A DNA stretch of 11,574 nt from Candidatus Izemoplasmatales bacterium (GTDB taxonomy: Bacteria > Bacillota_I > Bacilli_A > Izemoplasmatales > Hujiaoplasmataceae): contig JAQVTV010000020.1 in NCBI GenBank assembly GCA_028699855.1, positions 1-11,574 on the forward strand, given 5' to 3'. The stretch's first letter is position 1, and the number at the start of each line of letters is the position of its first letter. The position numbers and the translations under genes are program-made. Below the pieces are notes generated by a model. That model saw only the letters and a list, made by a program, of their open reading frames with translations. It was not told the DNA's origin and searched no databases. Shown one piece after another: positions 1 to 11,574 of the stretch.

Positions 1-491
1 TTCTGCTCAATTTCAGTCGTGATAAACTCGTCGATGACGATGCGCTTGAACAAGCGATTGCATCCGGTTTGATTCGAAAATATGTGACTGATTTCCCGAA
101 CCCGAAAACAGCGCAGATGCAAAACGTCATCGCCATTCCTCATCTCGGAGCTTCAACCGAGGAATCGGAGGACAATTGCGCGTCCATGGCTGCGCGCCAG
201 CTCATCAGTTATGTTGAAAGCGGCACGATCATCAATTCGGTCAATTTTCCGAAGATTGTGCTCCCGCCGAAGGAGCGAATGAACCGCGTCATCATCCTCC
301 ACCGTGCCATCGATGGTTTCTTGACCAGCGTGATGAAGAAGCTCGAAGGCAAGATCGCGATTCAAAGCGTCGTCAATCAAGCGAATTCCGCTTATGGCGT
401 GACCGCCTTTGATACCAAGCAAACGATCACACCTGACGATCTATCGATGATCGATCACTTACCCGGTGTGATTCGCACCCGATTGGTATAA
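1..491 (+). CDS. serA: D-3-phosphoglycerate dehydrogenase, C-terminal part (5' truncated by window)
   Basis: This is the last 162 codons of a phosphoglycerate dehydrogenase, read in the frame starting at position 3. The enzyme oxidises 3-phosphoglycerate to 3-phosphohydroxypyruvate with NAD+, the first step of serine synthesis in the cytoplasm. The opening LLNFSRDKLVDDDAL is the late nucleotide-binding-domain stretch of this 2-hydroxyacid dehydrogenase family. IPHLGASTEESEDNCA follows, and its His (codon 141-143) is the family's catalytic general acid/base. The segment NSVNFP leads into a C-terminal ACT-like domain (from about position 280), ending in PGVIRTRLV; in this family that domain serves regulation or oligomerisation. 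It ends with TAA at 489-491 and is followed by a strong terminator, so it is a separate unit from the sugar genes downstream. Identification is firm; only the N-terminal portion is missing. Confidence 0.93.
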   Translation, partial: LLNFSRDKLVDDDALEQAIASGLIRKYVTDFPNPKTAQMQNVIAIPHLGASTEESEDNCASMAARQLISYVESGTIINSVNFPKIVLPPKERMNRVIILHRAIDGFLTSVMKKLEGKIAIQSVVNQANSAYGVTAFDTKQTITPDDLSMIDHLPGVIRTRLV

Positions 492-509
492 TCACAGATA
501 TGTACATCG

Positions 510-535
510 CCTCCGGAGTTTCCGGAGGTTTTTTT
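510..535 (+). terminator. Rho-independent terminator after serA
   Basis: A perfect 8-bp stem CCTCCGGA (510-517) pairs with TCCGGAGG (521-528) across a 3-nt loop and is followed by seven T residues (529-535). It lies 19 nt after the serA stop and separates serA from the next transcription unit. Confidence 0.93.
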
Positions 536-624
536 GTGGATTGGATCAGGAGATCATCCATGCGTTGGCAGGTGTATGAGTTGCGAAACACCGGACAAAA
601 TCATCCTATTATTGGAAATGACTC
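536..624. other. Intergenic stretch without a convincing gene
   Basis: This is the upstream half of the serA-isomerase gap. It contains a 25-codon ORF (560-637) preceded by AGGAG, but that ORF has no promoter of its own, starts downstream of the serA terminator and runs into the isomerase promoter. No RNA gene or strong hairpin is visible. Confidence 0.4.
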
Positions 625-645
625 AAATGTATTATAAATGTATTG
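625..645 (+). promoter_or_regulatory. Direct-repeat operator candidate upstream of the isomerase gene
   Basis: Two copies of AAATGTATT (625-633 and 636-644) lie 11 bp apart, so they face the same side of the helix. The last TT of the second copy forms the start of the -35 box at 643. The same arrangement occurs at 3247-3267 with one mismatch in 21 bases, and the half-site recurs inverted in the gntR promoter. This suggests a shared regulator-binding site, plausibly for the encoded GntR protein, but binding is inferred. Confidence 0.6.
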
Positions 646-671
646 AAATAATGTGGCATCACTGATATAAT
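643..671 (+). promoter_or_regulatory. Sigma-A-type promoter for the isomerase gene
   Basis: TTGAAA (643-648) and TATAAT (666-671) are separated by exactly 17 bp, with an extended -10 TG at 663-664. The expected transcript start near 678 gives a leader of roughly 22 nt carrying the ribosome binding site AAGGAGG (688-694), 6 nt before the ATG. Confidence 0.88.
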
Positions 672-700
672 AATGATGAACATGAATAAGGAGGGGGATC

Positions 701-2419
701 ATGAAGTATCTCGATTTTAGAAGTGAATACGATAAGTTTCCCAAAACACGGATTTTCGGATATACAGATCAGGTATGGTCTCGCGTTTCTCAGATCGCTG
801 ATAAGATCCAGAAAATGACCGGCGTAATCGCAATGGAGACTTATCCGGGAGTCATGATTTCTGATATCGAAAGCACCATTCTCTCTCAACTTCAAGGTTA
901 TGATATCATCCATATCGAAAAATGCCGCAAACCCCTGAAGGCGTTGGCGCGTTTGCTTGATCCATTATTGACGGATGACCGCGTTTTCGGCATGATGAAT
1001 ACGCTCATGATTGAAGATCTCTATGACATGGACGCGATCGCCAAAATCAAGAGACAATGCATGAACACCAGCCGAAACACGATTATCATCGGGTTTGGCG
1101 CGAGCATGATCCCTTATGACCATTTGCTATATTTTGATATCACCCGTTGGGAAATCCAATTGAGATTCCGTCAAGGAATGGCGAACTTCACCGCAGACAA
1201 CCCGGGAGAAGATCCTCTACGCAAATTCAAGCGCGGCTACTTTGTGGAATGGCGGATTGCCGACCGCATCAAAAAAAGTCATTTGTCGCACAGCGATTAC
1301 ATCATCGACGCACATCGCGTCGGATCCTATACCATGATTACGCAGGAAGCATGGCAACACGGCCTCAACCGCCTCTCGCAACAACCTTTCCGACTCATTC
1401 CGTATTTTGATCCCGGTGTGTGGGGCGGTGATTGGATGCAAGAAGTCTGCGGTCTCGATGACAACAAACTGAACTATGCCTGGGCGTTCGATGGCGTACC
1501 CGAAGAAAACGCGCTCTGCCTGCAATTCGACGATGCACTCTTCGAGTTTCCCGCGATCAATCTCGTGTTTTTCCGTCCGATAGAACTATTAGGAAAGCGC
1601 GTATTTGAGCGATTTGGCACTGAGTATCCGATTCGCTTCGATTTCCTTGATACGATGAATGGCGGAAACCTTTCGCTTCAAGTCCATCCGCTGCCGAAAT
1701 ATATCCGCGATACCTTCGGCATGGATTATACACAGGATGAATCCTACTATATTCTCGATGCCGGACCCGATAGCGTAGTCTACCTCGGTTTAAAAGAAGG
1801 CGTGAAGCCGGAAGCATTGATTTCCGACCTCGAAAAGGCTAACCGTGGACAAGGTGGATTTGATGACGAAAAATACATCAATCGCTTTCCGGCCAAAAAA
1901 CATGACCACTTTCTTATTCCTGCAGGGACGATTCACTGTAGCGGAAAAGACACCATGGTCCTTGAAATCAGTTCGACACCCTATATTTTTACCTTCAAAT
2001 TATGGGACTGGGACCGGCTCGGACTCGATGGCTTGCCCCGCCCCGTTCATATCAATCACGGCAAGGAAGTGATTCAATATGATCGTACGACCTCATGGGT
2101 CCAGGAGAATCTGATCAATCGTTTCGAGAAAATCTCGGAGATCGAAGAGAAAACCGGGCTCCATGAACTGGAGTTCATCGAAACGCGGCGTTTCACGTTT
2201 ATGGACAAAATCACCGTTAAGACTCATGAATCGTTTGCCCAGTGCAATCTCATCTCCGGACGCGCCGCCATTATCACCTCGGAAAACGGAAGCTTCGCTC
2301 CGTTCGAGGTCCATTATGCGGAGACATTCGTCATTCCCGAAACCATCAAACGTTTTTCCATCGCTCCGAAGTATCCGGGAGACACATGCATGCTCATCCA
2401 AGCCTTCGTCCGGTCATGA
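701..2419 (+). CDS. Two-domain class I mannose-6-phosphate isomerase-like protein
   Basis: The 572-residue protein carries a C-terminal type I phosphomannose isomerase (cupin) domain, expected to interconvert mannose-6-phosphate and fructose-6-phosphate in the cytoplasm. The domain starts near residue 230 (YFDPGVWGGDW, like the family's F-x-x-x-IWGG opening). It shows the metal ligands in order: Gln327 and His329 in LSLQVHP, Glu347 in DESYYIL, and His412 in IPAGTIHC. Ordinary bacterial ManA proteins are about 310-390 residues, so about 200 residues are extra at the N-terminus. That region has VIAMETYPGVMISDIEST (about 43-59), placed where a P-loop would be but without GK(S/T), then YFDITRWEIQ (about 144-153) and KRGYFVEWRIADR (about 177-189). 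I read it as a degenerate nucleoside-kinase-like domain, as in other long ManA proteins; this is an inference. The start is set by AAGGAGG 6 nt upstream. The promoter shares its operator with the transporter operon, suggesting that it processes the imported sugar. The exact substrate is not proven. Confidence 0.85.
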   Translation: MKYLDFRSEYDKFPKTRIFGYTDQVWSRVSQIADKIQKMTGVIAMETYPGVMISDIESTILSQLQGYDIIHIEKCRKPLKALARLLDPLLTDDRVFGMMNTLMIEDLYDMDAIAKIKRQCMNTSRNTIIIGFGASMIPYDHLLYFDITRWEIQLRFRQGMANFTADNPGEDPLRKFKRGYFVEWRIADRIKKSHLSHSDYIIDAHRVGSYTMITQEAWQHGLNRLSQQPFRLIPYFDPGVWGGDWMQEVCGLDDNKLNYAWAFDGVPEENALCLQFDDALFEFPAINLVFFRPIELLGKRVFERFGTEYPIRFDFLDTMNGGNLSLQVHPLPKYIRDTFGMDYTQDESYYILDAGPDSVVYLGLKEGVKPEALISDLEKANRGQGGFDDEKYINRFPAKKHDHFLIPAGTIHCSGKDTMVLEISSTPYIFTFKLWDWDRLGLDGLPRPVHINHGKEVIQYDRTTSWVQENLINRFEKISEIEEKTGLHELEFIETRRFTFMDKITVKTHESFAQCNLISGRAAIITSENGSFAPFEVHYAETFVIPETIKRFSIAPKYPGDTCMLIQAFVRS

Positions 2420-2431
2420 TCACATTCACGA

Positions 2432-2460
2432 TTGAATATGTTACATACATTTGCTATAAT
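2432..2460 (+). promoter_or_regulatory. Promoter of the GntR regulator gene
   Basis: TTGAAT (2432-2437) and TATAAT (2455-2460) are spaced 17 bp apart, with an extended -10 TG at 2452-2453. It begins 13 nt after the isomerase stop codon. The predicted start near 2467 leaves a very short leader of about 13 nt that still holds AAGGA (2466-2470). Confidence 0.8.
2437..2452. promoter_or_regulatory. Candidate autoregulatory operator inside the gntR promoter spacer
   Basis: The spacer between -35 and -10 contains the perfect inverted repeat TATGT-T-ACATA (2437-2447). It also contains ATACATTT (2445-2452), the reverse complement of the AAATGTAT half-site found doubled at 625-645 and 3247-3267. A protein bound here would block RNA polymerase, consistent with autorepression by the GntR protein. 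Binding is inferred from position and sequence only. Confidence 0.5.
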
Positions 2461-2479
2461 GGGTCAAGGAAGTGATGAT

Positions 2480-3205
2480 ATGAAAGTCGATATCTCGAGT
2501 AATCAACCGTTTTATCTACAGATTCGCAATGATCTCAAACAAAAAATCGAAAGCGGCGAATGGCGCGAAGGCGCGCTCATTCCCTCGGAAAACGATTTAT
2601 CGGAAGCTTACGGCGTCAGCCGTGTGACCATCCGTTCGGCAATCAAGGAGTTGGTCAATGAACGCTATTTGATCCGACGTCCCGGTTTTGGTACCATGGT
2701 CTTTCAAAACAAGGAATCTCTTTCCAATTTCACGCTCGTGCGTTCGTTCACCAACGAGATGAAGGAAATGGGGATCATGAGTCGAACGCTCGAGAGCGAG
2801 TTCGAGTGGATTAAGGCCGATTTGAAGCTCGCCCAGATTTTCGGCATCGAAGAAGGAGATCCATTATACAATCTCAGAAGAGTCAGAGGAGACAATGTCC
2901 CGATTCTCTATTCCGACACCTATCTTTTACCCGTCATCGAGATCAGCGATGATGTGTGTTTGGGCTCTTTGTATCAATATTTGGCCAAAAAGGGAATATT
3001 CTTTGACCACTTTGAAGAAAAGGTCTCAGCGGTGAAAGCACCTCGTGAAATCACCCAGAAGCTCAAAATCTATTATGATGCACCGCAACTCAAACGGATC
3101 CGTTACAGTTATGATGAAAACAACCGCCTCTTAGAGTACACCGAAACGTATTATAATTCTTTATTATATGAGTATCGCACCTCGATATCCTATCGCAAGA
3201 AGTAG
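2480..3205 (+). CDS. GntR-family (HutC/UTRA) transcriptional regulator
   Basis: This 241-residue protein is a typical HutC-subfamily regulator. Residues about 9-75 form the winged helix-turn-helix: QPFYLQIRNDLKQKIESG leads in, then PSENDLSEAYGVSRVTIRSAIKEL (35-58) and a wing around RRPGFGTMV. Residues about 88-235 form a UTRA effector domain (LYNLRRVRGDNVPILYSDTYL in its core, LLEYTETYYNS near the end), which in this family binds a sugar, sugar phosphate or similar small ligand that controls DNA binding. I chose ATG 2480 because AAGGA sits 9 nt upstream and because the in-frame TTG at 2432 lies inside the promoter's -35 region. Its position between the isomerase and the transporter operon, and shared repeat motifs at three promoters, make it the likely local regulator. 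The ligand is unknown; a phosphorylated mannose-like sugar is a guess. Confidence 0.92.
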   Translation: MKVDISSNQPFYLQIRNDLKQKIESGEWREGALIPSENDLSEAYGVSRVTIRSAIKELVNERYLIRRPGFGTMVFQNKESLSNFTLVRSFTNEMKEMGIMSRTLESEFEWIKADLKLAQIFGIEEGDPLYNLRRVRGDNVPILYSDTYLLPVIEISDDVCLGSLYQYLAKKGIFFDHFEEKVSAVKAPREITQKLKIYYDAPQLKRIRYSYDENNRLLEYTETYYNSLLYEYRTSISYRKK

Positions 3206-3222
3206 TCTTCTTGCTTTTTTTT
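3195..3222 (+). terminator. Rho-independent terminator overlapping the gntR stop codon
   Basis: An 8-bp perfect stem GCAAGAAG (3195-3202) pairs with CTTCTTGC (3207-3214), followed by eight T residues (3215-3222). The 4-nt loop TAGT contains the gntR stop codon itself, so the 5' arm encodes the last residues of the protein. Confidence 0.9.
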
Positions 3223-3246
3223 GCGTTATTTTAAACAGAAAATATT

Positions 3247-3267
3247 AAATGTATTAAAAATGTATTG
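3247..3267 (+). promoter_or_regulatory. Direct-repeat operator candidate upstream of the long operon
   Basis: AAATGTATT occurs at 3247-3255 and 3258-3266, an 11-bp period. The block matches 625-645 at 20 of 21 positions, and its second copy ends in the first two bases of the -35 box, exactly as at the isomerase promoter. This implies joint control of the two units. Confidence 0.6.
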
Positions 3268-3293
3268 TAATGAAAGCGCCCACATGGTATACT
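3265..3293 (+). promoter_or_regulatory. Promoter of the propeller-transporter operon
   Basis: TTGTAA (3265-3270) and TATACT (3288-3293) are 17 bp apart, with an extended -10 TG at 3285-3286. The expected start near 3300 gives a leader of about 30 nt. No comparable promoter or any terminator is visible in the gaps between the downstream genes, so the genes from 3331 onward are likely one transcript. Confidence 0.85.
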
Positions 3294-3330
3294 ATCTATA
3301 AGATTTGCGGCCTTGGGGGTGACTCACAGG

Positions 3331-5415
3331 ATGAAAACACCTTTCTTTTCTTTCGGTATCATCCTGCTCTTCCTACTGATGGGCTGCTCCGGGGGTACGA
3401 CTGTGACCTTGCCAGCATGTACGTATCAGTTTTCGGGGACCGAGGGAGAGCGCATCTCAATTCAGAGTCTTTCGTCCGAGACTTCCAAAATCGATGGAAA
3501 TGTCGATTATTTTGTGCATCCGTGCAAACCTGAGGCAGAATATCCTTTGCGCTTTTATGAGTCGAAAATCAAAAGTCACGTCTTCTTTGTCAGCTTTGAC
3601 AAGATTTATCCCATTTCGCTCATCCGATGGTTCAATCCATCATCCGCTGACACCTTGATTGAATCCGTATCAGTCGATGTGTCCTTGAATGGTCTTGCTT
3701 ACACCCGCGTACGCTCAAATCAACCTCTGACAGAAGGATTGAATGCCGTTTCGCTGTCCGAGGTGAGCGCGAAATATATCCGTTTCACTTTTCCTGCGAC
3801 GGCAGATGCCACCTACACCCTAGCGCATCTTGAGTTCATCCTCGATATGGGTTTGATCGTCGAAGAAGATATGGATTGGACCCTTGCATTTCAACGATAT
3901 GAGTACTGGACAGGCGCAGACGGGATATTTTCGTTCAATCTGCTCGGTGACGACCGCATCGGCGCGGATCGGTCCAAGACGGCATTTATCTTCAGCGATA
4001 CTTTCACGGGAGCAGTCAACCCCTTCAACAACGTCCGCAATAGCATGCGCTTGATCAATAATTCTCTGGGTTATTACAACGGGGACAGCGACATCGCCTC
4101 AGGGATGCGTTTCGAATACCCCGTCAACGCATCGAATCAATCTCAAAGCGCCTTTGAACCGACGGAATATCTCGGTTATCAGGCGTCGAATCTGCTCGAC
4201 GCCTACGGCTTGGATATCTCCTATGATCCCGAAGGGAAATTGACGAATACCGCCAATGGCATCATGTGGAAAGCACCTTTCAGAAGCGGCATCGAGCTCA
4301 TCTTCGATTTTCAGAGTGAGGTCTCGCTTGAAACGATATATATATGGAATTTCAATGAAACGCCGGGGCTTGGTGTTTCCGACTTCCGGTTGTTCGCATC
4401 CGCCGACGGCGAGTCTTGGGTCTTGATTGATACATATTCCATGGCCCAGGCAAGCGGTAATCCCGATGAATCCTATTCCTTATCGATATCCATTCCGTCA
4501 CAGACCGTTCTGAAGCTCAAGTTGGAAGTGCTATCGAGTCACGATGATGAGATGGTCGGTTTGGGAAAAATCGTGTTTATCGATCATGATTCGATGCCTT
4601 TGTTTGCCCAGGTCAGCACTACAGACACATCGCCTGAAATCACGGGTAACGAGCTGACGGCACGGTTATGGCTTCAAGACGGCATCGTGCTGGGCAACGA
4701 TTTCTATTGTTTTCCGATTCTCGTCAAAGATACGCCTGAGGCGTTCGAAGTATTCCGGGTCGGAATGATCCATACGCCGATCGAAGCGGACCGGTTCGTC
4801 TATGAAGACGCGACATACATGACTTCGCCACTCATGAGTTTCACGCCCGAGGGCGGAATCATCTATTTCGGAGCGGGCGTGATGGACAACCGTCCGCAAG
4901 ATGGCTACATCTATGTCTACGGCTACCTCGATCTCAATGGTCGTCATCTCATCGTTTCCCGCACCACCGAGGAAGATTTCACCCACTTCAACCATTGGGA
5001 ATACTTTGATGGTTCGGGCTGGTCCCGTGACATCAATCAATCCTACCCCTTGATCGACAAAGTGTCTGCAGAACTCAGCGTAACGTATATGGATCAAGGT
5101 CTGTTTGCCGGAAAGTATATGCTGGTAGTCACGGAGCACACGGTGAGCAGTCGCATCGTCTATGCGCTGTCCGATACCCCCTATGGAACTTTTGGTGCAT
5201 ATCAGCTGCTCTATCAATCGATTGAACACACCCTCTATCGCGGGGCGATCACCTATAACGCCAAAATGCATGCGCACTTGAGTGAGCCGGGAAGTTACTT
5301 GATTTCGTATAACGTCAATTCGACCTCGCCTGCCGCATTGTATAATGCCAATGTGTATCGACCGCGATTCATCCGCGTTACAGAAGTCAAACCCATGGAG
5401 GACAACGATTCATGA
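3331..5415 (+). CDS. Secreted lipoprotein, predicted beta-propeller with discoidin-like domains (DUF5005/DUF4185-like)
   Basis: The 694-residue protein begins with a lipoprotein signal (MKTPFFSFGIILLFLLMGC, Cys19 in lipobox LLMGC), so it should be anchored outside the membrane. Residues about 80-172 resemble an F5/8 type C (discoidin) beta-sandwich. From about 182 a repeated beta-rich fold begins: WTGADGIFSFNL (Asp197), FIFSDTFTG (Asp223) and NNSLGYYN. It is interrupted by a second discoidin-like stretch (about 315-417), then resumes with LWLQDGI (Asp450), DGYIYVYGY (Asp524), WEYFDG (Asp560), ELSV (Glu581) and YNAKMHAHLS to VYRPRFIRV. This pattern recalls DUF5005/DUF4185 and five-bladed propellers of GH43/GH32/GH117-type enzymes; family assignment is from memory and tentative. 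ATG 3331 is preceded by GGGGGTGA at 8 nt; an upstream in-frame TTG (3313) would spoil the signal peptide. It overlaps the next gene, its paralog, by 4 nt. A role in binding or cleaving a glycan at the cell surface is inferred. Confidence 0.75.
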   Translation: MKTPFFSFGIILLFLLMGCSGGTTVTLPACTYQFSGTEGERISIQSLSSETSKIDGNVDYFVHPCKPEAEYPLRFYESKIKSHVFFVSFDKIYPISLIRWFNPSSADTLIESVSVDVSLNGLAYTRVRSNQPLTEGLNAVSLSEVSAKYIRFTFPATADATYTLAHLEFILDMGLIVEEDMDWTLAFQRYEYWTGADGIFSFNLLGDDRIGADRSKTAFIFSDTFTGAVNPFNNVRNSMRLINNSLGYYNGDSDIASGMRFEYPVNASNQSQSAFEPTEYLGYQASNLLDAYGLDISYDPEGKLTNTANGIMWKAPFRSGIELIFDFQSEVSLETIYIWNFNETPGLGVSDFRLFASADGESWVLIDTYSMAQASGNPDESYSLSISIPSQTVLKLKLEVLSSHDDEMVGLGKIVFIDHDSMPLFAQVSTTDTSPEITGNELTARLWLQDGIVLGNDFYCFPILVKDTPEAFEVFRVGMIHTPIEADRFVYEDATYMTSPLMSFTPEGGIIYFGAGVMDNRPQDGYIYVYGYLDLNGRHLIVSRTTEEDFTHFNHWEYFDGSGWSRDINQSYPLIDKVSAELSVTYMDQGLFAGKYMLVVTEHTVSSRIVYALSDTPYGTFGAYQLLYQSIEHTLYRGAITYNAKMHAHLSEPGSYLISYNVNSTSPAALYNANVYRPRFIRVTEVKPMEDNDS

Positions 5416-7208
5416 AAGTGATCAAAGAAGTGGTCTTGGACCAGGGAAGCCACACGCTCAAACTCGACAAAATCTACCCCATCGCATCGGTGGAAGGAAA
5501 CCACATTGCCCAGATTCGATACTTGGCCGACCACAAACCGGCAGTATCCGTCTATTCCGTGGTCTACGCCGATGAGATCGCACTCGACATCACTGCCAAG
5601 GATTCGATTCGCGTGATGCTCGGCAAAGGATACGTGGTTTCCATCGATCCCGTGTGGACGAAACGCTTTGCGAACCGTCAAGGCTGGGCCGGGGGGGATG
5701 GCATCTATTCGTTCAACCTCTCTACAGGCAACGACCAGTTCGATCAACACACGCCTGCCACCAACCTCTTTGTGTTTGGCGACACTTTGGTCGGCCGCAC
5801 CGACAAAATCACCAAACAACGCTATGAACCGCTGATCATGACAAACAACAGCATGGCCTATTTCGACAAGGGGCAGGATCAGGTGCACTTTCATTTGAAC
5901 CGCGGCGTGAAACAATCGATTGAATCCTTTTTCACTCTTGCCGATCGCGACAACCGCAAAGGGACGATTCCGGAAAACCTCGTGCAGGAGTCCGAGCGAC
6001 TCAAAGATCTCTTCTGGATGAGCAGTTTCCATCCCGAGACGGTGACGATCACTTTTGATCTCAATCAGAAAGTCGATGTGACGCATATCGATGTCTTGAA
6101 CTACTGGAGCCAAGAATCTCCGTCCTTATCTTCACGCGGAGTCAAAGTCCTGCAACTTTTCGGATCGCAAGAAGGAAAAAAATGGGACTTTATCGGTGAG
6201 TTTCAACTAAAACAGAGTTTTTCCGATGAAGATATTTCGACGATTCCCGTCGAGAAGATGTATCGCTACTTCAAGTTCGATATCAATCCTCATCCCGGAA
6301 TCGGGAATTACGAGGACGATTACGAAGAAGCTGTGTTCGCGTTGAAGCGTGTGTCTTTCTTCCATCATGCACGCAAGTACCGCGATATCCGTGTGGAAGC
6401 GTCGTCCATCATGCTTGACGAACCCGCCAACGCGTGGATTTGGCTTCAAGACGGTGTCGTGAGCCAGAACCACCTCTATTTCTTTCCTTATACCGTCGTC
6501 CAAGATCTCCAACAGCCTGAGGGCTTGCAGTTCGCCATCAAAGGGATCTCGATGATCAAAGTGCCAATCACGAACGAGAGGTTGATTTACCAACACCAGA
6601 GCCAAAGGCCTATACCCTTCCATGGCTTGCATCACGGAAGCGAATACGCGTTCGGCGGTGCGGTAATGGCCCAGACCAAGCAAGCGGGCTCAATCAATCC
6701 CGATGGCTATGTCTATATCTATGGCTACAAAACGACAATAGGACTCCGGCAAATGCTCGCCGCCCGCGTGAAAGAAGAAGATATCGAGTTGTTTGACCGA
6801 TGGGAATTTTATGATGGCACAGAGTGGGTCAGCGATTATCTGAAGGCCAAGCCGCTCTTAGACCATATTTCCACCGAGTTCAGCGTGTCTCGCGTCCTCG
6901 AAGGGGTCTACCAGGATTTATACCTCGTCGTCTTCACTTTCGATACGGATACCGCGCAAGTCGCTTTCGCGCTCGGGGAAACCCCGGTGGGGCCCTTCAC
7001 GGATCCGGTGATCATCTATCACACTCCGGAACAGGCGATATTTGGCAAAACCACCTATACGTATAATGCCAAAGCCCATCCCCAACTTTCGAAGAGTACG
7101 GATGTCCTGGTGACTTACAACACCAACACCTATTCATTCCCGCACAATATGGAGAATGCGGAAGTCTACAATCCCCGTTTCCTCCGTTTTAAGGATACGT
7201 CAAAATAG
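5412..7208 (+). CDS. Paralog of the preceding lipoprotein without a signal peptide (predicted cytoplasmic beta-propeller)
   Basis: This 598-residue protein parallels its upstream neighbour motif by motif: DKIYPI near residue 19, WAGGDGIYSFNL (Asp96), FVFGDTLVG (Asp124), NNSMAYFD, a discoidin-like insertion (about 205-318, with FDLNQKVDVTHIDVLNYW), WLQDGVV (Asp347), DGYVYIYGY (Asp431), WEFYDG (Asp468), EFSV (Glu489), YNAKAHPQLS (His556) and VYNPRFLRF at the end. Unlike its neighbour it starts MKVIKEVVLDQG, with no hydrophobic segment and no lipobox, and the N-terminal sandwich is shortened. The start is set by GGAGG (5397-5401), 10 nt upstream, and its ATG overlaps the upstream stop (ATGA), suggesting translational coupling. 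The acidic residues kept in both copies are candidates for an active site. I infer an intracellular glycan-processing enzyme acting on what the ABC importer brings in, but a non-enzymatic binding role is possible. Confidence 0.72.
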   Translation: MKVIKEVVLDQGSHTLKLDKIYPIASVEGNHIAQIRYLADHKPAVSVYSVVYADEIALDITAKDSIRVMLGKGYVVSIDPVWTKRFANRQGWAGGDGIYSFNLSTGNDQFDQHTPATNLFVFGDTLVGRTDKITKQRYEPLIMTNNSMAYFDKGQDQVHFHLNRGVKQSIESFFTLADRDNRKGTIPENLVQESERLKDLFWMSSFHPETVTITFDLNQKVDVTHIDVLNYWSQESPSLSSRGVKVLQLFGSQEGKKWDFIGEFQLKQSFSDEDISTIPVEKMYRYFKFDINPHPGIGNYEDDYEEAVFALKRVSFFHHARKYRDIRVEASSIMLDEPANAWIWLQDGVVSQNHLYFFPYTVVQDLQQPEGLQFAIKGISMIKVPITNERLIYQHQSQRPIPFHGLHHGSEYAFGGAVMAQTKQAGSINPDGYVYIYGYKTTIGLRQMLAARVKEEDIELFDRWEFYDGTEWVSDYLKAKPLLDHISTEFSVSRVLEGVYQDLYLVVFTFDTDTAQVAFALGETPVGPFTDPVIIYHTPEQAIFGKTTYTYNAKAHPQLSKSTDVLVTYNTNTYSFPHNMENAEVYNPRFLRFKDTSK

Positions 7209-7226
7209 TTTAAGAGGCACAGACGC

Positions 7227-8102
7227 ATGTCAGAATTGATGCTCCCGAAACAAAAGTATCGCTCCCGTAAGAAACGAGCCAGAATCGTACGTTTGATCTT
7301 GCACATCGTGCTCCTTTTGTGTTCGTTGGTTTTCGTATTTCCATTTTTATGGATGCTCGTGACCGCGCTCAAAACACCCGCAGAACTTTTGCGGGGGATC
7401 GATGTGTTCTTTCCTGCTAAGCCCCAATGGTCGAATTTTATCGATGCCGTGCAGAAGATTCCTTTCTTCATGTACTTGAAAAACAGTCTGATCATCGTGG
7501 TATTGGTCGTTTTCGGGACAGTCATGAGTGCGACGACTGCGGCGTACGCTTTCGCGAAACTGCGTTGGAAAGGCCGTGACAAATGGTTTATCGTGATGTT
7601 GGCGACGATGATGTTGCCGATTCAGGTCATCCTCATTCCGACCTATGTCATGTATTCGTGGATCGGATGGCTCGGTACGCGTTTGCCCATGATTGTTCCC
7701 GCATTTTTCGGTGGCGGAGCGGCCTTCTATATTTTCCTGATGCGCCAGTTCTTTAAAGGCATACCCAAAGAACTCACCGAAAGCGCGATTATCGATGGTG
7801 CGAATCATTTCCAGATATTCCTGAAGATTATGTTACCGCTGTCCAAGCCCGCCATTGTTACCGTGGCCTTATTCACATTTATGGGCACATGGAATGATTA
7901 TTTCGGTCCACTGATCTTCTTGAGCAACCCCGACCATTGGACGCTCGCCTTGGGTCTCAGGGCATTCCAGACGCAGTACGGTGGTCAATACAACTTGATG
8001 ATGGCTGCGTCCATCCTCATCATGTTACCTACCTTAATCATCTTTTTCTTCGCACAAAAAACGTTTATTGAAGGAATTAAGTTTACTGGAATCAAGGGAT
8101 AG
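7227..8102 (+). CDS. Carbohydrate ABC transporter permease, MalG type
   Basis: A 291-residue integral membrane protein of the binding-protein-dependent permease family (MalG/LacG/UgpE-like). After a basic N-terminus (KQKYRSRKKRAR) come about six hydrophobic segments, roughly at 22-46, 86-110, 120-143, 153-172, 210-232 and 258-276. The cytoplasmic EAA loop that docks the ATPase is ELTESAIIDGANHFQIFLKIMLP (182-204), with the usual Glu, Gly and Leu-Pro positions. TWNDYFGPLIF and the C-terminal FIEGIKFTGIKG are typical of this subfamily. It forms a heterodimer with the MalF-type partner encoded two genes later. A weak AAGAGG site (7212-7217) precedes the ATG, and only 18 nt separate it from the previous gene. 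The order permease-binding protein-permease is unusual; the binding protein normally comes first. Substrate cannot be read from the sequence, though context suggests an oligosaccharide. Confidence 0.95.
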   Translation: MSELMLPKQKYRSRKKRARIVRLILHIVLLLCSLVFVFPFLWMLVTALKTPAELLRGIDVFFPAKPQWSNFIDAVQKIPFFMYLKNSLIIVVLVVFGTVMSATTAAYAFAKLRWKGRDKWFIVMLATMMLPIQVILIPTYVMYSWIGWLGTRLPMIVPAFFGGGAAFYIFLMRQFFKGIPKELTESAIIDGANHFQIFLKIMLPLSKPAIVTVALFTFMGTWNDYFGPLIFLSNPDHWTLALGLRAFQTQYGGQYNLMMAASILIMLPTLIIFFFAQKTFIEGIKFTGIKG

Positions 8103-8112
8103 GAGGTTATCC

Positions 8113-9411
8113 ATGAAAAAGTTTTTGTCAATCTTGCTCTTAGGTTTACTTTCACTCGCGCTGTATGGTTGTAATGATGATACGCCCACAGATCGCATCG
8201 AAATCACTTTCTGGCATATGTCACCGGTTGGAAGTGCATCTTTTTCTGACACCAGGCGCATCATTACTGAGTTCAACCAGTCACAAGATGTCTATTTTGT
8301 CAAAGGCACGGGATTCTCGTTCTGGGATTACTGGGATAAAATCGCGGTTGCCATCAGTTCACGGACCGCGCCCGATATTGGTTTATCCACCATCGATGAT
8401 GTGCCCATCCGGGCAGAGGCAGGTGTACTCTATAATCTATCAGAACTCATAGAAGCGGATCCAGATGGCATTGAAATCGATCAGCTCTATGACAGTCAAC
8501 TCAGTTTCGCGACATACGATGGCCATCTCTACGCCTTGCCATTCACCGCGACGACACGCGTGTTGTATTATAACCTCGATATGTTCACCGCAGCGGGTCT
8601 ATCCGCAGACGACGTGCCGACGACGTGGAGCGAACTCCATACCGTCGCCAAACAACTCGATATCGTCCAAGGGAGTTCCATCCAGCAGTTGGGTTTTGAT
8701 CCGACCTATGGGAATGCGACGTATCATGGCTATTTGTGGCAAGCCGGGCTCGACTTCTTCGATGAAGACTTGAATCCCACATTGAACACCCAGGGTCATA
8801 TCGATGTCTTGCAATGGATGATCGATTTCAACAGCGAGTTTACTCGCAGCCAGTTGACGGCGTTCGGCGATGCCAACACGATGCTCGGAATCAACCCCTT
8901 CGCAGGCGAACGCGTGGCGATGATGATCGAAGTCGACAGCCTATATCAGACCATCAAAGAAGCAGGAGCGGATTTCAACTTCGGTGTGACTTCGATCCCG
9001 GTGCCCGATGACGGCGGGATTCGCGTCAATTGGGGCAGTGGATTTTCTGTGGAAATGTATGACAACAACAAAAATACCCCCGACAAAAAGGCCGGAGCCT
9101 GGGAATTTTTGAAGTATTTGATGAGCAAAGACACACAAAAAGATTTGTCTGAAACCAACGGATGGATCATGGCGCACCAAGGCGCGATGCTTGAAGTCGC
9201 GGAGGGAGACGCCATCATGACGCGTATCCTCGAAGAAGTGGCGTACGCACGCGACAAAGTATATGTTCCTTACGCGCCATCATGGCATGGCAATGACTGG
9301 CAATCGTATTATAACGATGCACTGACCGGCAAGAAGACCGCCGCGCAAGCCTTGGCGGATGCGCGGGCGAATTATCTCCAGAAAAAAGCGAACTGGGAAG
9401 CAACGCGTTAA
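8113..9411 (+). CDS. Sugar-binding lipoprotein of an ABC importer
   Basis: This 432-residue protein is an extracellular solute-binding protein of the MalE/UgpB type (SBP_bac_1/8 group). Its signal peptide, MKKFLSILLLGLLSLALYGC, ends in a lipobox with Cys20, so it is tethered to the outer face of the membrane. Family hallmarks are ITFWHMSP near residue 31, the APDIGLSTIDDVP stretch (86-98), LYNLSELI, DGHLYALPFTATTRVLYYN (hinge region), and late GAWEFLKYLMSKDTQKDLSETNGW. Many aromatic residues (FSFWDYWD at 68-75 and others) could stack on sugar rings. ATG 8113 is set by AGGAGG (8101-8106), which overlaps the permease stop codon; an upstream in-frame start inside the permease gene would disrupt the signal. 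It delivers ligand to the two flanking permeases. Confidence 0.95.
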   Translation: MKKFLSILLLGLLSLALYGCNDDTPTDRIEITFWHMSPVGSASFSDTRRIITEFNQSQDVYFVKGTGFSFWDYWDKIAVAISSRTAPDIGLSTIDDVPIRAEAGVLYNLSELIEADPDGIEIDQLYDSQLSFATYDGHLYALPFTATTRVLYYNLDMFTAAGLSADDVPTTWSELHTVAKQLDIVQGSSIQQLGFDPTYGNATYHGYLWQAGLDFFDEDLNPTLNTQGHIDVLQWMIDFNSEFTRSQLTAFGDANTMLGINPFAGERVAMMIEVDSLYQTIKEAGADFNFGVTSIPVPDDGGIRVNWGSGFSVEMYDNNKNTPDKKAGAWEFLKYLMSKDTQKDLSETNGWIMAHQGAMLEVAEGDAIMTRILEEVAYARDKVYVPYAPSWHGNDWQSYYNDALTGKKTAAQALADARANYLQKKANWEATR

Positions 9412-9416
9412 GGAGG
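9410..9416 (+). promoter_or_regulatory. Ribosome binding site that selects between two adjacent ATG codons
   Basis: AAGGAGG sits 3 nt before ATG 9420 and 6 nt before ATG 9423. The isomerase and binding-protein genes both use a 6-nt gap, so the second ATG is favoured. The site overlaps the stop of the preceding gene. Confidence 0.7.
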
Positions 9417-9422
9417 ACCATG

Positions 9423-10340
9423 ATGGGAAAAACCATTTCGATCATCAAAATGCGCAAGCAGGAAAATCTGATCGGCTATCTTTTCGCCTCGCCGTGGCTT
9501 TTTGGTTTGATCGTCCTCGGGTTTTTTCCGATTTTGATGTCGTTTTACTTCAGCTTCACGAACTACAACATGGTATCCGCCCCGAAAATCATCTGGTTCG
9601 AGAATTACCGGATTTTGCTCACGAATGACAACTTGTTTTGGAAGTCGCTCGGCATTACGCTCTATCATGTCGTGATTGCGGTGCCTCTGGGGATTTTTGT
9701 GGGTTTGTTCCTCGCTTTTCTCCTCAACAGCAAGATCAAAGGCATCAGCATCTATCGGACTTTGTTCTATTTGCCGAACGTGGTGAGTGTCGTGGCGATG
9801 ACTCTGCTTTGGATGTGGTTGTTTCAACCCAACTTCGGACTGATCAACCAACTTCTAAAACCGCTGTACGATCTATTCAAGATGGAACCGCTCGGTTGGT
9901 ATCTCGATCAGGATCTATCCAAGCTCACTTTGATCCTGATGGGATTGTGGACGGCTGGAGGATCGATGGTGATCTACCTGGCCCAGATGCAGGACATTCC
10001 TGTTACCTTGTACGAGTCGGCGGATATCGATGGGGCTTCTTGGTTCAAGAAGATGATCCACATCACCCTGCCCCTCATGACACCCTCGATCTTTTTCAAT
10101 TTCATTATGGGGCTGATCGGTTCGTTCCAAGTGTTCACCATCGCTTATATCATGACTGGCGGCGGTCCGTCGCGTTCCACCTATTACTATGCCTATTATT
10201 TGTTCGATAAAATGATGAACGATAATGCCATGGGCATGGCTTCTGCGATGGCATGGATTCTCCTCGTCATCGTCCTCATCGTCACTGTGTTTGCATTGCG
10301 TCTGAATAAATATGTTTTCTATTTGGGCGAAGATTCATAA
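9423..10340 (+). CDS. Carbohydrate ABC transporter permease, MalF type
   Basis: A 305-residue membrane protein of the MalF/LacF/UgpA family. The opening RKQENLIGYLFASPWLFGLIVLGFFPILMSFYFSFTNY is characteristic of this group, followed by about five more hydrophobic segments. The EAA loop is LYESADIDGASWFKKMIHITLPLMTP (196-221). MTGGGPSRSTYYYAYYLF (about 244-261) is the conserved region before the last membrane span. It pairs with the MalG-type protein to form the translocation channel. I favour the second of two consecutive ATG codons because of the ribosome binding site spacing; starting at 9420 would add one Met. No ATPase gene accompanies the permeases here, so a shared MsmK-type ATPase from elsewhere, or one further downstream, must energise it. 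Confidence 0.95.
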   Translation: MGKTISIIKMRKQENLIGYLFASPWLFGLIVLGFFPILMSFYFSFTNYNMVSAPKIIWFENYRILLTNDNLFWKSLGITLYHVVIAVPLGIFVGLFLAFLLNSKIKGISIYRTLFYLPNVVSVVAMTLLWMWLFQPNFGLINQLLKPLYDLFKMEPLGWYLDQDLSKLTLILMGLWTAGGSMVIYLAQMQDIPVTLYESADIDGASWFKKMIHITLPLMTPSIFFNFIMGLIGSFQVFTIAYIMTGGGPSRSTYYYAYYLFDKMMNDNAMGMASAMAWILLVIVLIVTVFALRLNKYVFYLGEDS

Positions 10341-10370
10341 AATATATGATAATATATAGGAGGAAAAACA

Positions 10371-11210
10371 ATGTGTAAGAAGATTTTAATGATTTTTGGT
10401 TTACTGGCAACTGTATTGGTTCTTGGGGGCTGCTGGCCCGCTGAGATCGGTGTCGAAACCGAATTCACGAGTCGTTCAGGCGGTGGCACCCGCGTGTTCG
10501 TAGTGGATATCATGGATGACACCTTGGCGACCGAACCCATCACGAATCCCGATGACCCAGATGGCACCGAAGGTAAAGGCGCAGTCATCAACAACAAGCA
10601 TATTACGGGTGGGTTAGGAGCGATTCAAACCTGGCTGGAACAGTATGCACCGGATTTCATCACGGTGAAACCGATGACAACTTCGGGCTATCACCGGTAT
10701 TTCACCTTCGAGTTCAGTTTCAAAGACTTCGACGAGTTTCTTGAGAAATACGAAGCTTTGGTCAACCTGAGCCCGACGATGAGTTGGAGCGACTTTGACG
10801 CCGATGAAAAGCCCAAGTGGGTTTGTGAAGGCGGACAATGCACGTTCACCGAGAGCAAGGCGATTTTGGAAGCTTCACTCGACTGGGCGTTGGATGGCAT
10901 CTTCAACGACATCTATGATGCGGATGATTTGGCGGATTATGTCGGCAAAGCCGATATCAGCGTGCTCGCCAACTACAAGCTCTATGTCGGTGATGGCGAA
11001 TATGAGGAACTCCAACACTTCGATGCGGATGCCATTGATGGCGCTGGAACCGGCAAAGTGGTCTATGTGACCAGCGAAACTTTGACCGGAACGGGTCAAG
11101 TCCCGATGGCGGGATGGCTGATTGGCGTCATCATTGCCGGTGTAGTACTCGTGGCCGGCGGTGCAGTTGTCCTCGTGCTTCTCTTAGGCAAGAAGAAAGC
11201 TGTAGCATAA
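10371..11210 (+). CDS. Lipoprotein with a C-terminal transmembrane anchor, function unknown
   Basis: This 279-residue protein has a signal peptide with lipobox VLGGC (Cys21) and a second hydrophobic segment at about 249-272, followed by GKKKAVA. It would therefore be held in the membrane at both ends, with an extracellular domain of about 225 residues between. That domain is acidic, has alternating beta and helical character (YFTFEFSFKDFDEFLEKYEAL at 110-130) and contains a C-x4-C pair (Cys152, Cys157). The overall plan resembles LppM/DUF3153-type lipoproteins, but the match is only architectural. AGGAGG lies 7 nt before the ATG, and the gene is 30 nt after the MalF-type permease, so it most likely belongs to the same operon. 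A role in assisting the transporter or the surface propeller protein is a guess. Confidence 0.7.
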   Translation: MCKKILMIFGLLATVLVLGGCWPAEIGVETEFTSRSGGGTRVFVVDIMDDTLATEPITNPDDPDGTEGKGAVINNKHITGGLGAIQTWLEQYAPDFITVKPMTTSGYHRYFTFEFSFKDFDEFLEKYEALVNLSPTMSWSDFDADEKPKWVCEGGQCTFTESKAILEASLDWALDGIFNDIYDADDLADYVGKADISVLANYKLYVGDGEYEELQHFDADAIDGAGTGKVVYVTSETLTGTGQVPMAGWLIGVIIAGVVLVAGGAVVLVLLLGKKKAVA

Positions 11211-11239
11211 AAACGAATTAAGGAAACAGGGAGGCCCGG

Positions 11240-11574
11240 ATGCAGCGCACCACCTTCAAAGATCTCTACAAGGATATCATCGATTACATCTTGCTCAATC
11301 TCATTTTTCTTGCGACCGTCTTATTGACCGCAATGGTGACGTTTGGAGCGGCATTAAAAGCGCTTTTCTACGTTTCCAGGCGATTGAGTGCGCACGATCT
11401 CCAGGTATCTGTGTGGCGCGATTTCTTCAAGAGTTTCAAAGAAGAGTTCGGCTTGAGTACTTTGATTTGGTTTTGCACAGTGCTTTTGGGCCTTTCTGCG
11501 TATTTCGGTTTTCTGAGCGCGATGGAAAACGAGCAGATGATCATCCTCGTTTTGCTGATCGTCTCCGTTCTGTT
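11240..11574 (+). CDS. DUF624 (YesL-family) membrane protein, N-terminal part (cut by window end)
   Basis: An open frame starts at ATG 11240, 5 nt after AGGGAGG (11228-11234), and runs to the window edge for 111 codons without a stop. The sequence has a first membrane segment YILLNLIFLATVLLTAMVTFGAA, then ALKALFYVSRRLSAHDLQVSVWRDFFKSFKEEFGLSTLIWF. The TFGAA...ALFYV and RDFF-SFK-F...W pattern is the signature of DUF624/YesL proteins. These are small (about 200-residue) integral membrane proteins often encoded beside sugar ABC transporters, such as yesL in Bacillus subtilis. Their biochemical role is unknown. It follows the preceding lipoprotein gene by 29 nt and extends the operon beyond the window. 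Confidence 0.85.
   Translation, partial: MQRTTFKDLYKDIIDYILLNLIFLATVLLTAMVTFGAALKALFYVSRRLSAHDLQVSVWRDFFKSFKEEFGLSTLIWFCTVLLGLSAYFGFLSAMENEQMIILVLLIVSVL

Follow-up and report, generated by a model that had tools for sequence, protein, structure and literature searches.

A conserved tandem pair of GH183-like propeller proteins, split between cell surface and cytoplasm, in a sugar-import locus of a Candidatus Izemoplasmatales bacterium

Results

The window analysed here is a contig of 11,574 nucleotides (JAQVTV010000020.1, positions 1 to 11,574 of the forward strand) from Candidatus Izemoplasmatales bacterium; it is the whole contig, from a 1.34-Mb genome (GCA_028699855.1) that is 68.5% complete. 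It carries, in this order, genes for a 2-hydroxyacid dehydrogenase (its end only), a protein with a mannose-6-phosphate isomerase-like half (designated here as PMI fusion; PMI, phosphomannose isomerase), a GntR/UTRA regulator, two related proteins designated here as GH_A and GH_B (GH, glycoside hydrolase), an ATP-binding cassette (ABC) sugar permease, a sugar-binding protein (SBP), a second permease, a lipoprotein-like protein and a DUF624 membrane protein. The tandem pair GH_A/GH_B is real and conserved, and its two members, one at the surface and one in the cytoplasm, are likely to degrade a glycan. Its features are the following:

3331..5415, forward strand: GH_A, surface lipoprotein with a GH183-like propeller, 694 amino acids (open reading frame, Pfam, hydropathy, model)
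3331..3387, forward strand: lipoprotein signal of GH_A, Cys19 (sequence and hydrophobicity)
3547..3855, forward strand: N-terminal discoidin/CBM32-like domain of GH_A, approximate bounds (profile match to 2j7m/2v5d; strands in the model)
4231..4542, forward strand: discoidin (F5/8 type C) domain inserted in the propeller of GH_A (Pfam)
4894..5247, forward strand: DUF4185 match of GH_A, containing R538, R544 and E581 (Pfam, 52.5 vs 39.5 bits)
5412..7208, forward strand: GH_B, cytoplasmic protein with a GH183-like propeller, 598 amino acids (open reading frame, Pfam, hydropathy, model)
6006..6290, forward strand: discoidin-like domain inserted in the propeller of GH_B (Pfam below the cut-off, fold matches)
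6669..7109, forward strand: DUF4185 match of GH_B, containing R446, R452 and E489 (Pfam, 45.7 vs 39.5 bits)

GH_A and GH_B as a surface/cytosol pair

The two genes overlap by 4 nt (ATGA, 5412-5415), and their products share 28% identity over 552 columns (two-sequence BLASTP, E 3e-63), far beyond chance. Every motif listed in the original prediction, which was made from the letters of the window, is present in both proteins and in the same order. GH_A begins with MKTPFFSFGIILLFLLMGC, a lipoprotein-like N-terminus with Cys19 and a best 15-residue hydropathy of 2.55; GH_B has no comparable hydrophobic stretch at its N-terminus (1.29), so that the signal is confined to the first protein, as predicted. 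The same holds for their relatives: a hydrophobic N-terminal stretch (hydropathy of at least 1.89) was found in 26/26 GH_A rows with a complete N-terminus, whereas none of the 32 GH_B-type rows reached this value (highest, 1.49). With SBP_bac_8 and BPD_transp_1 genes alongside (Pfam), the proposed division between outside and inside in a sugar-ABC locus is supported.

A genome-collection scan with GH_B alone gave no relative; with an alignment it gave 176 pattern hits, 163 of which encode relatives. Locus counts below rest on the 79 loci kept, grouped by locus number and record title (34 Mycoplasmatota-type, 11 Paenibacillaceae/Bacillus, 34 other). The clade extends over Mycoplasmatota, Bacillota, Bacteroidota and several further phyla; the closest relatives of the window in the named collection are metagenome-assembled genomes labelled Acholeplasmataceae, Acholeplasmatales, Izemoplasmatales, Bacilli and similar, by which we count it among the Mycoplasmatota. 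Of the 28 Mycoplasmatota-type loci showing both A and B, 27 have them no more than ~210 nt apart (L072: 1037 nt). In 10/11 Paenibacillaceae-type loci one copy with and one without a hydrophobic N-terminus can be found, with variable adjacency. The family is present in 19 of 101 genomes (that of the window plus 100 relatives), which we count as pair genomes; in one of them (G076) A and B are ~16 kb apart.

Some relatives deviate from this arrangement. A third paralog lies directly 3' of GH_B at L069:10791-12044, L081:10796-12016 and L064:10751-11734; it is short and insert-free, lacks a hydrophobic N-terminus and has a GH183-like Asp-Asp spacing of 17. In G062 (L047:4125-6114, on the contig of L078) GH_A has an interrupted frame, the last piece of which contains one TGA.

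Fold and discoidin domains

AlphaFold2 modelled GH_A with a mean pLDDT (predicted local distance difference test) of 92.9 and a pTM (predicted template modelling score) of 0.89 (27-sequence alignment), and GH_B with 93.5 and 0.91 (33-sequence alignment). In Foldseek searches the first match of both models was 4hbs (GH_A, 2.7e-14; GH_B, 3.7e-13) and the second was EndoMA1 (5.7e-10 and 5.8e-10), with AraH2 (8an0) tenth for GH_B (4.2e-6); chains of the F5/8 type and of CBM32 (CBM, carbohydrate-binding module) stood lower in both lists. Query-normalised TM-scores of the first matches are modest (GH_A, 0.33-0.39; GH_B, 0.36-0.46), as would be expected for queries with large extra domains. Profile searches of the PDB led to the same two proteins (4hbs: E 9.9e-7 for GH_A, 2e-6 for GH_B; EndoMA1: E 9.5e-7 and 0.038). 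The propeller proposed for both proteins is thus borne out by structure prediction and fold search, which match solved five-bladed enzymes. EndoMA1 is described by its authors as 5-bladed (PMC10509167), and by analogy GH_A and GH_B probably have five blades as well.

The discoidin-like insertion is present in both proteins. In GH_A it passes the Pfam F5_F8_type_C cut-off (37.5 vs 28.2 bits, best stretch 301-404), whereas in GH_B it remains below it (19.5 bits, 199-293). It had been placed after the second repeat; it lies, however, between D124 and D347 (GH_B numbering), which we read as after blade 1. GH_A possesses a further, N-terminal domain like these, with profile positions 93-185 matching NagJ chains 2j7m/2v5d, which we take to be CBM32.

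Insert length was measured as the number of residues between D124 and D347. This stretch has 204-245 residues in the Mycoplasmatota group (27 GH_A and 32 GH_B rows), 56-62 in three rows of the third paralog, 70-71 in nine rows of Paenibacillaceae-type B and 37-85 in 39 further rows; among Paenibacillaceae-type A rows it has 67-80 in eight and 269-271 in two (two L097 pieces excluded). As it is long in all Mycoplasmatota A and B rows, the insert is old there and common to both paralogs. The two exceptions (surface copies L091:7810-10779 and L093:4175-7093) have their 269-271 residues at the same site, perhaps through a separate insertion.

In phylogenetic trees, Mycoplasmatota A and B group together, with an SH-aLRT (Shimodaira-Hasegawa-like approximate likelihood ratio test) support of 99 in the 121-row tree (62 rows) and 99/97 in a 63-row tree (25 rows). 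The latter set, used also for the approximately unbiased (AU) test, was derived from the 121 rows by dropping eight long or fragmentary rows and thinning the Mycoplasmatota and 'other' rows. Since a clade uniting Mycoplasmatota B with Paenibacillaceae B is not rejected by the AU test (p 0.079), we do not claim an independent origin of the pair in the two groups.

Putative catalytic residues

The five acids proposed for each protein correspond one to one in the pairwise alignment (GH_A/GH_B: D197/D96, D223/D124, D450/D347, D524/D431, E581/E489). In EndoMA1, D33 is reported as the nucleophile and D51 as the acid/base, with E243 and R198 supporting; D33N, D51N and E243 mutants were nearly inactive (PMC10509167). 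For DgGH4185b, two Asp are described as essential, activity being broadly retained without the Glu (PMC10115798). The dyad motif is GADG/GGDG...FSDT/FGDT in the window clade and G[ST]DLG...FGDT in GH183, with an Asp-Asp spacing of 26 and 28 in the window pair, 26-31 in 59 Mycoplasmatota A and B rows and 17-19 in five GH183 rows. Because the profile-profile alignment covers only the C-terminal part, the equivalence of this dyad to D33/D51 rests on the motif. E243 aligns with E581/E489 (sequence/profile alignment). R538 is aligned with Arg198 in the gapped alignment and is two residues off without gaps, R446 being similarly near; R or K occupies this position in 109/122 rows.

Conservation was counted over 122 rows, which include both window proteins (GH_B numbering): D96 is kept in 121, D124 and D347 in 120 each, D431 in 117, R452 and E489 in 120 each, K554 in 118 and H556 in 117. 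The K554 position is Tyr, Met or Phe in the five GH183 rows; H556 is replaced in three of these, the two phage rows having His. With the acids kept in about 120 of 122 rows, neither paralog looks degraded. Loss of catalysis in GH_B, leaving it as a binding or regulatory protein beside an active GH_A, would suit its missing signal peptide and the nearby regulator gene, but is very improbable, as D96, D124, D347 and E489 are invariant in the 33 GH_B alignment rows (D431 nearly so) and the B group has the shorter stem branch (0.36, against 0.65 for the A group).

Family membership

Both proteins pass the gathering cut-off of Pfam DUF4185 (PF13810, GH183; 39.5 bits) with 52.5 (GH_A) and 45.7 bits (GH_B). 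The match is partial (positions 169-283 and 160-294 of 309), whereas two plasmid-borne comparators reach 315 and 339 bits over positions 2-309 and 1-309, and six full-length matches in relatives score 205-218 bits over positions 8-308. Profile-profile alignment to GH183 likewise covers the C-terminal part alone (E 4.5e-10 and 9.1e-10). DUF5005 (PF16396) was considered and rejected (23.4 and 19.2 vs 29.6 bits); L108, an insert-free relative, passes it (31.5 bits). GH32, GH43, GH117, GH130 and other GH families were not among the six and seven Pfam families listed at E up to 10, a listing incomplete for weak matches since HMMER filters drop most of them, and GH43 chains of the PDB gave weak profile and fold matches. 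An NCBIfam scan of GH_A and GH_B gave no match. One further protein (G001, C20:10786-11664; 46.1 bits, positions 26-288) has a DUF4185 coverage typical neither of full-strength GH183 nor of the window type.

The window-type proteins group apart, as a clade placed between DUF4185 and DUF5005. As they pass the DUF4185 cut-off and keep the catalytic acids, they fall within a superfamily that includes a known glycosidase family, and the suggestion of a possible new family therefore stands in part: the clade looks new, a sister group beside GH183.

The pair shares with GH183 (EndoMA1, 8hhv/8ic1; DgGH4185a/b; AraH2, 8an0) the propeller, the Asp-Asp dyad, a third Glu and a nearby Arg, as well as a surface or secreted enzyme encoded in an ABC-transporter locus. 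It differs in the Asp spacing, K554, the discoidin insert, the C-terminal PF13810 match, the PMI-like gene instead of a D-arabinose pathway and the cytoplasmic paralog. BACOVA_04882 (4hbs, DUF5005, 'putative hydrolase') is the best structural match of both models and has GW-GGDG and YRP-type segments as well, but with 406 residues it is probably too short for a propeller with such an insert; no activity was found given for it in the accessible parts of the open-licence literature.

A metal-dependent deacetylase function directed at carbohydrates, or a lyase function, on the same kind of propeller is improbable for the pair: the GH183-type acids are kept, EndoMA1 and AraH2 are in the top 10 of the GH_B Foldseek search, no deacetylase was among the best 50 of 958 and the best 50 of 1216 fold matches, and separate SASA or GDSL esterases occur at some related loci. 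In the open-licence PMC literature, no paper combining 'deacetylase' with 'five-bladed' was found.

Locus context

The genes surrounding the pair provide evidence on the sugar:

701..2419, forward strand: PMI fusion, C-terminal half like mannose-6-phosphate isomerase (type I), N-terminal half unassigned (phmmer)
2480..3205, forward strand: GntR/UTRA transcription regulator (Pfam GntR 66.7 bits, UTRA 81.2 bits); the start at 2480 is our choice, the longest open reading frame beginning at 2432
7227..8102, forward strand: ABC sugar permease (Pfam BPD_transp_1, 84 bits)
8113..9411, forward strand: sugar-binding lipoprotein of the ABC importer (Pfam SBP_bac_8, 118.4 bits)
9420..10340, forward strand: ABC sugar permease (Pfam BPD_transp_1, 49 bits)

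Residues 223-554 of the PMI fusion match the mannose-6-phosphate isomerase 1qwr (phmmer, E 1.5e-13); Q327, H329, E347 and H412, presumably metal ligands, are invariant in 14/14 aligned sequences. Its N-terminal half (~200 residues) is conserved and has no Pfam match, and the whole fusion is 31-66% identical to 13 chosen relatives (Mycoplasmatota, Bacillota, Chloroflexota, Bacteroidota). The binding protein gave 42 matches in the PDB, which point to no one sugar.

Mycoplasmatota-type loci (34) contain genes for SBP in 30 cases, permeases in 29 and 26, PMI fusion (>450 amino acids) in 22, BadF-type kinase in 16 and GH38-like proteins in 6. In the 11 Paenibacillaceae-type loci, SBP, GH38-like and ROK genes were found in seven each and PMI fusion in five; the 34 other loci have PMI fusion in four and GH38-like genes in none. 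As many contigs are short, absences are not firm. The pair and PMI fusion co-occur in 14 of 101 genomes (15 with a contig-end fragment) vs ~3.6 expected (Fisher p 2e-9, uncorrected for kinship), taking as PMI-fusion genomes the 19 with E up to ~1e-53 among the 49 with any match.

It had been thought that no classical glycosidase accompanies the pair, but in several related loci a GH38-type gene adjoins it. Two scanned GH38-like genes pass Pfam GH38N (38.8 and 79.9 vs 25 bits). GH38N is present in 12/19 pair genomes vs 8/82 others; low-scoring GH38N (39.6-59.3 bits, a grouping made post hoc) lies beside GH_A or GH_B in 8/19 and occurs in 0/82. GH38 can be found as well in three of the five genomes with PMI fusion but no pair.

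Pair relatives on a Hymenobacter plasmid are located beside an annotated class I mannose-6-phosphate isomerase, ROK and sialate O-acetylesterase. Peloplasma aerotolerans, which carries the locus (L058), is described as growing on D-mannose among other sugars. A GDSL-type hydrolase cluster (one member scanned) is present in 21/34 Mycoplasmatota-type loci and in L094, and a SASA esterase cluster (one scanned) in L093, L117 and L124. This recurrence of esterase genes near the clade is the reason for our guess that the substrate is acylated.

GH183 and apparent D-arabinan loci in relatives

Full-length GH183 genes (G011, G021, G055 with three, and G061) offer a natural contrast. They lie near GH172 in G011, G055 and G061. 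L-fucose isomerases also isomerise D-arabinose; one is encoded at the GH183 locus of G011 (1031.7 bits), together with ribulokinase, and one at that of G061. The locus in G055 has a KpsF/KdsD-like isomerase (194.9 bits, below the cut-off of 203.7) and ribokinase. G011 and G055 possess the window-type pair too, on other contigs. GH172 and D-arabinose catabolism are not present among the window genes. Genomes from the same family or order as the window contain apparent D-arabinan loci (L138, L139, L140), with GH172, GH183 with lipoprotein-like N-termini, D-arabinose-type catabolism and, by appearance, ABC-transporter genes.

Discussion

We propose, with a probability of about 0.6, that GH_A and GH_B are retaining glycosidases working in series, outside and then inside the cell, on a mannose-containing, perhaps acylated glycan. 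Catalysis, action in series and mannose as the product are what we infer from sequences and models, in line with the glycan-degrading role originally envisaged. GH_A, anchored at the surface and equipped with two discoidin domains, would cut the glycan into oligosaccharides; the adjoining ABC importer (binding protein and two permeases) would take them up, and GH_B would cut them further in the cytoplasm by the same catalytic residues. The released mannose would then be channelled into glycolysis by the PMI fusion and a sugar kinase (no kinase gene was seen in the window; relatives have BadF-type or ROK), and in some relatives a GH38-type alpha-mannosidase may contribute. Homology to EndoMA1 suggests a retaining mechanism, in which the nucleophile would be D197/D96, the acid/base D223/D124 and the third acid E581/E489.

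The scheme resembles the D-arabinan locus described for Microbacterium arabinogalactanolyticum, where an endo-enzyme acts outside the cell, ABC import follows, enzymes inside the cell finish the degradation, and an isomerase and a kinase come last (PMC10509167). Common to both would be this order of steps; the intracellular enzymes there are GH172 and GH116, whereas that of the window is a paralog of the surface enzyme.

The pair's substrate probably contains mannose, for which there is a good but unproven case, and several observations weigh against it. In the open-licence literature no activity was found reported for any member of the clade. The window PMI fusion has no Pfam match at E 0.01 and no NCBIfam ManA match at E 0.1, that of L087 scores 20.7 vs a ManA cut-off of 116.2, and the fusion may act on another sugar phosphate. 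No PMI fusion >450 amino acids is seen in 30/34 other, 12/34 Mycoplasmatota-type and 6/11 Paenibacillaceae-type loci; it was not seen in 4/19 pair genomes, and five genomes have the fusion without the pair. GH38 was not found in the window's own, 68.5% complete genome, and G049 and G083 have a short GH38-like frame near GH_A (460 and 250 amino acids, respectively). In L089 (Paenibacillus montanisoli), L117 and L124 (Cyclobacteriaceae), the clade adjoins an enolase-superfamily sugar-acid dehydratase (in L089 below every NCBIfam cut-off listed) alongside genes which we take to be SDR-like (SDR, short-chain dehydrogenase/reductase) and SMP-30-like; this suggests that these species process the released sugar oxidatively. 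Finally, GH183 enzymes are directed at D-arabinofuranose, not mannose. Of the DUF4185 enzymes chosen from each major lobe of a published tree, all soluble ones are reported as endo-D-arabinanases (PMC10115798), although this tree may exclude the window clade. No paper treating DUF4185 and mannose-6-phosphate isomerase together was found in the open-licence PMC literature.

The reported activity of the soluble DUF4185 enzymes, with the fold, dyad and third Glu in common with EndoMA1 and the DUF4185 cut-off passed by both proteins, would also fit endo-D-arabinanases acting on D-arabinan or arabinomannan, the PMI fusion serving the mannan part of lipoarabinomannan-like glycans. We regard this as unlikely. 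The same lineage keeps GH183 and an apparent D-arabinose pathway apart from the window clade and its PMI-like gene, in G011 and G055 even within one genome, and it is mainly on this ground that we doubt D-arabinan as the substrate of the pair. GH172 (on contigs other than the pair's) and full-length GH183 do occur in pair genomes, but in 3/19 each, and GH116 over the cut-off in none of the 19; moreover, the DUF4185 match is partial and K554 and H556 are replaced in five and three of the five GH183 rows, respectively.

Equally doubtful is a pair of glycosidases directed at a sugar other than mannose (e.g., a 6-deoxyhexose or a uronic acid), with the PMI fusion isomerising the corresponding sugar phosphate. 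The divergence of the PMI half and the dehydratase, SDR-like and SMP-30-like genes in P. montanisoli and Cyclobacteriaceae would be explained in this way; yet the fusion clearly matches solved mannose-6-phosphate isomerases, and GH38-type genes stand at 6/34 Mycoplasmatota-type and 7/11 Paenibacillaceae-type loci.

Taking the proposed mannose-directed pair further, the chances are about even that the clade constitutes a new GH family, sister to GH183, which acts on an acylated mannose-containing glycan, with the task divided in several lineages between surface and cytoplasmic paralogs encoded in tandem, and that in Mycoplasmatota the discoidin domain common to both paralogs entered the propeller before the duplication. 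If so, the label DUF4185 (and hence 'D-arabinanase') would be misleading for this widespread clade, and wall-less Mycoplasmatota with small genomes would possess a dedicated polysaccharide-harvest system. The specific substrate class would be directly testable, the two relatives with both kinds of locus providing a built-in control.

Other features of the window

3195..3214, forward strand: terminator-like hairpin followed by T8, at the end of the regulator gene (pattern scan and sequence reading)
3265..3293, forward strand: weak promoter-like site 5' of GH_A (pattern scan)
10371..11210, forward strand: conserved lipoprotein-like protein with a C-terminal hydrophobic segment (sequence reading)
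11240..11572, forward strand: DUF624 membrane protein, truncated by the contig end (Pfam, 51.5 bits)

The promoter-pattern scan gave six sites in the window and 6.0 in shuffles, i.e., no excess, and the terminator-pattern scan seven (shuffles: mean 4.9, sd 2.2). An Rfam scan of the window gave nothing at gathering scores, and a tRNA scan found none. The lipoprotein-like protein (10371-11210) had no match in Pfam and NCBIfam scans; its relatives are encoded at 25/34 Mycoplasmatota-type loci.

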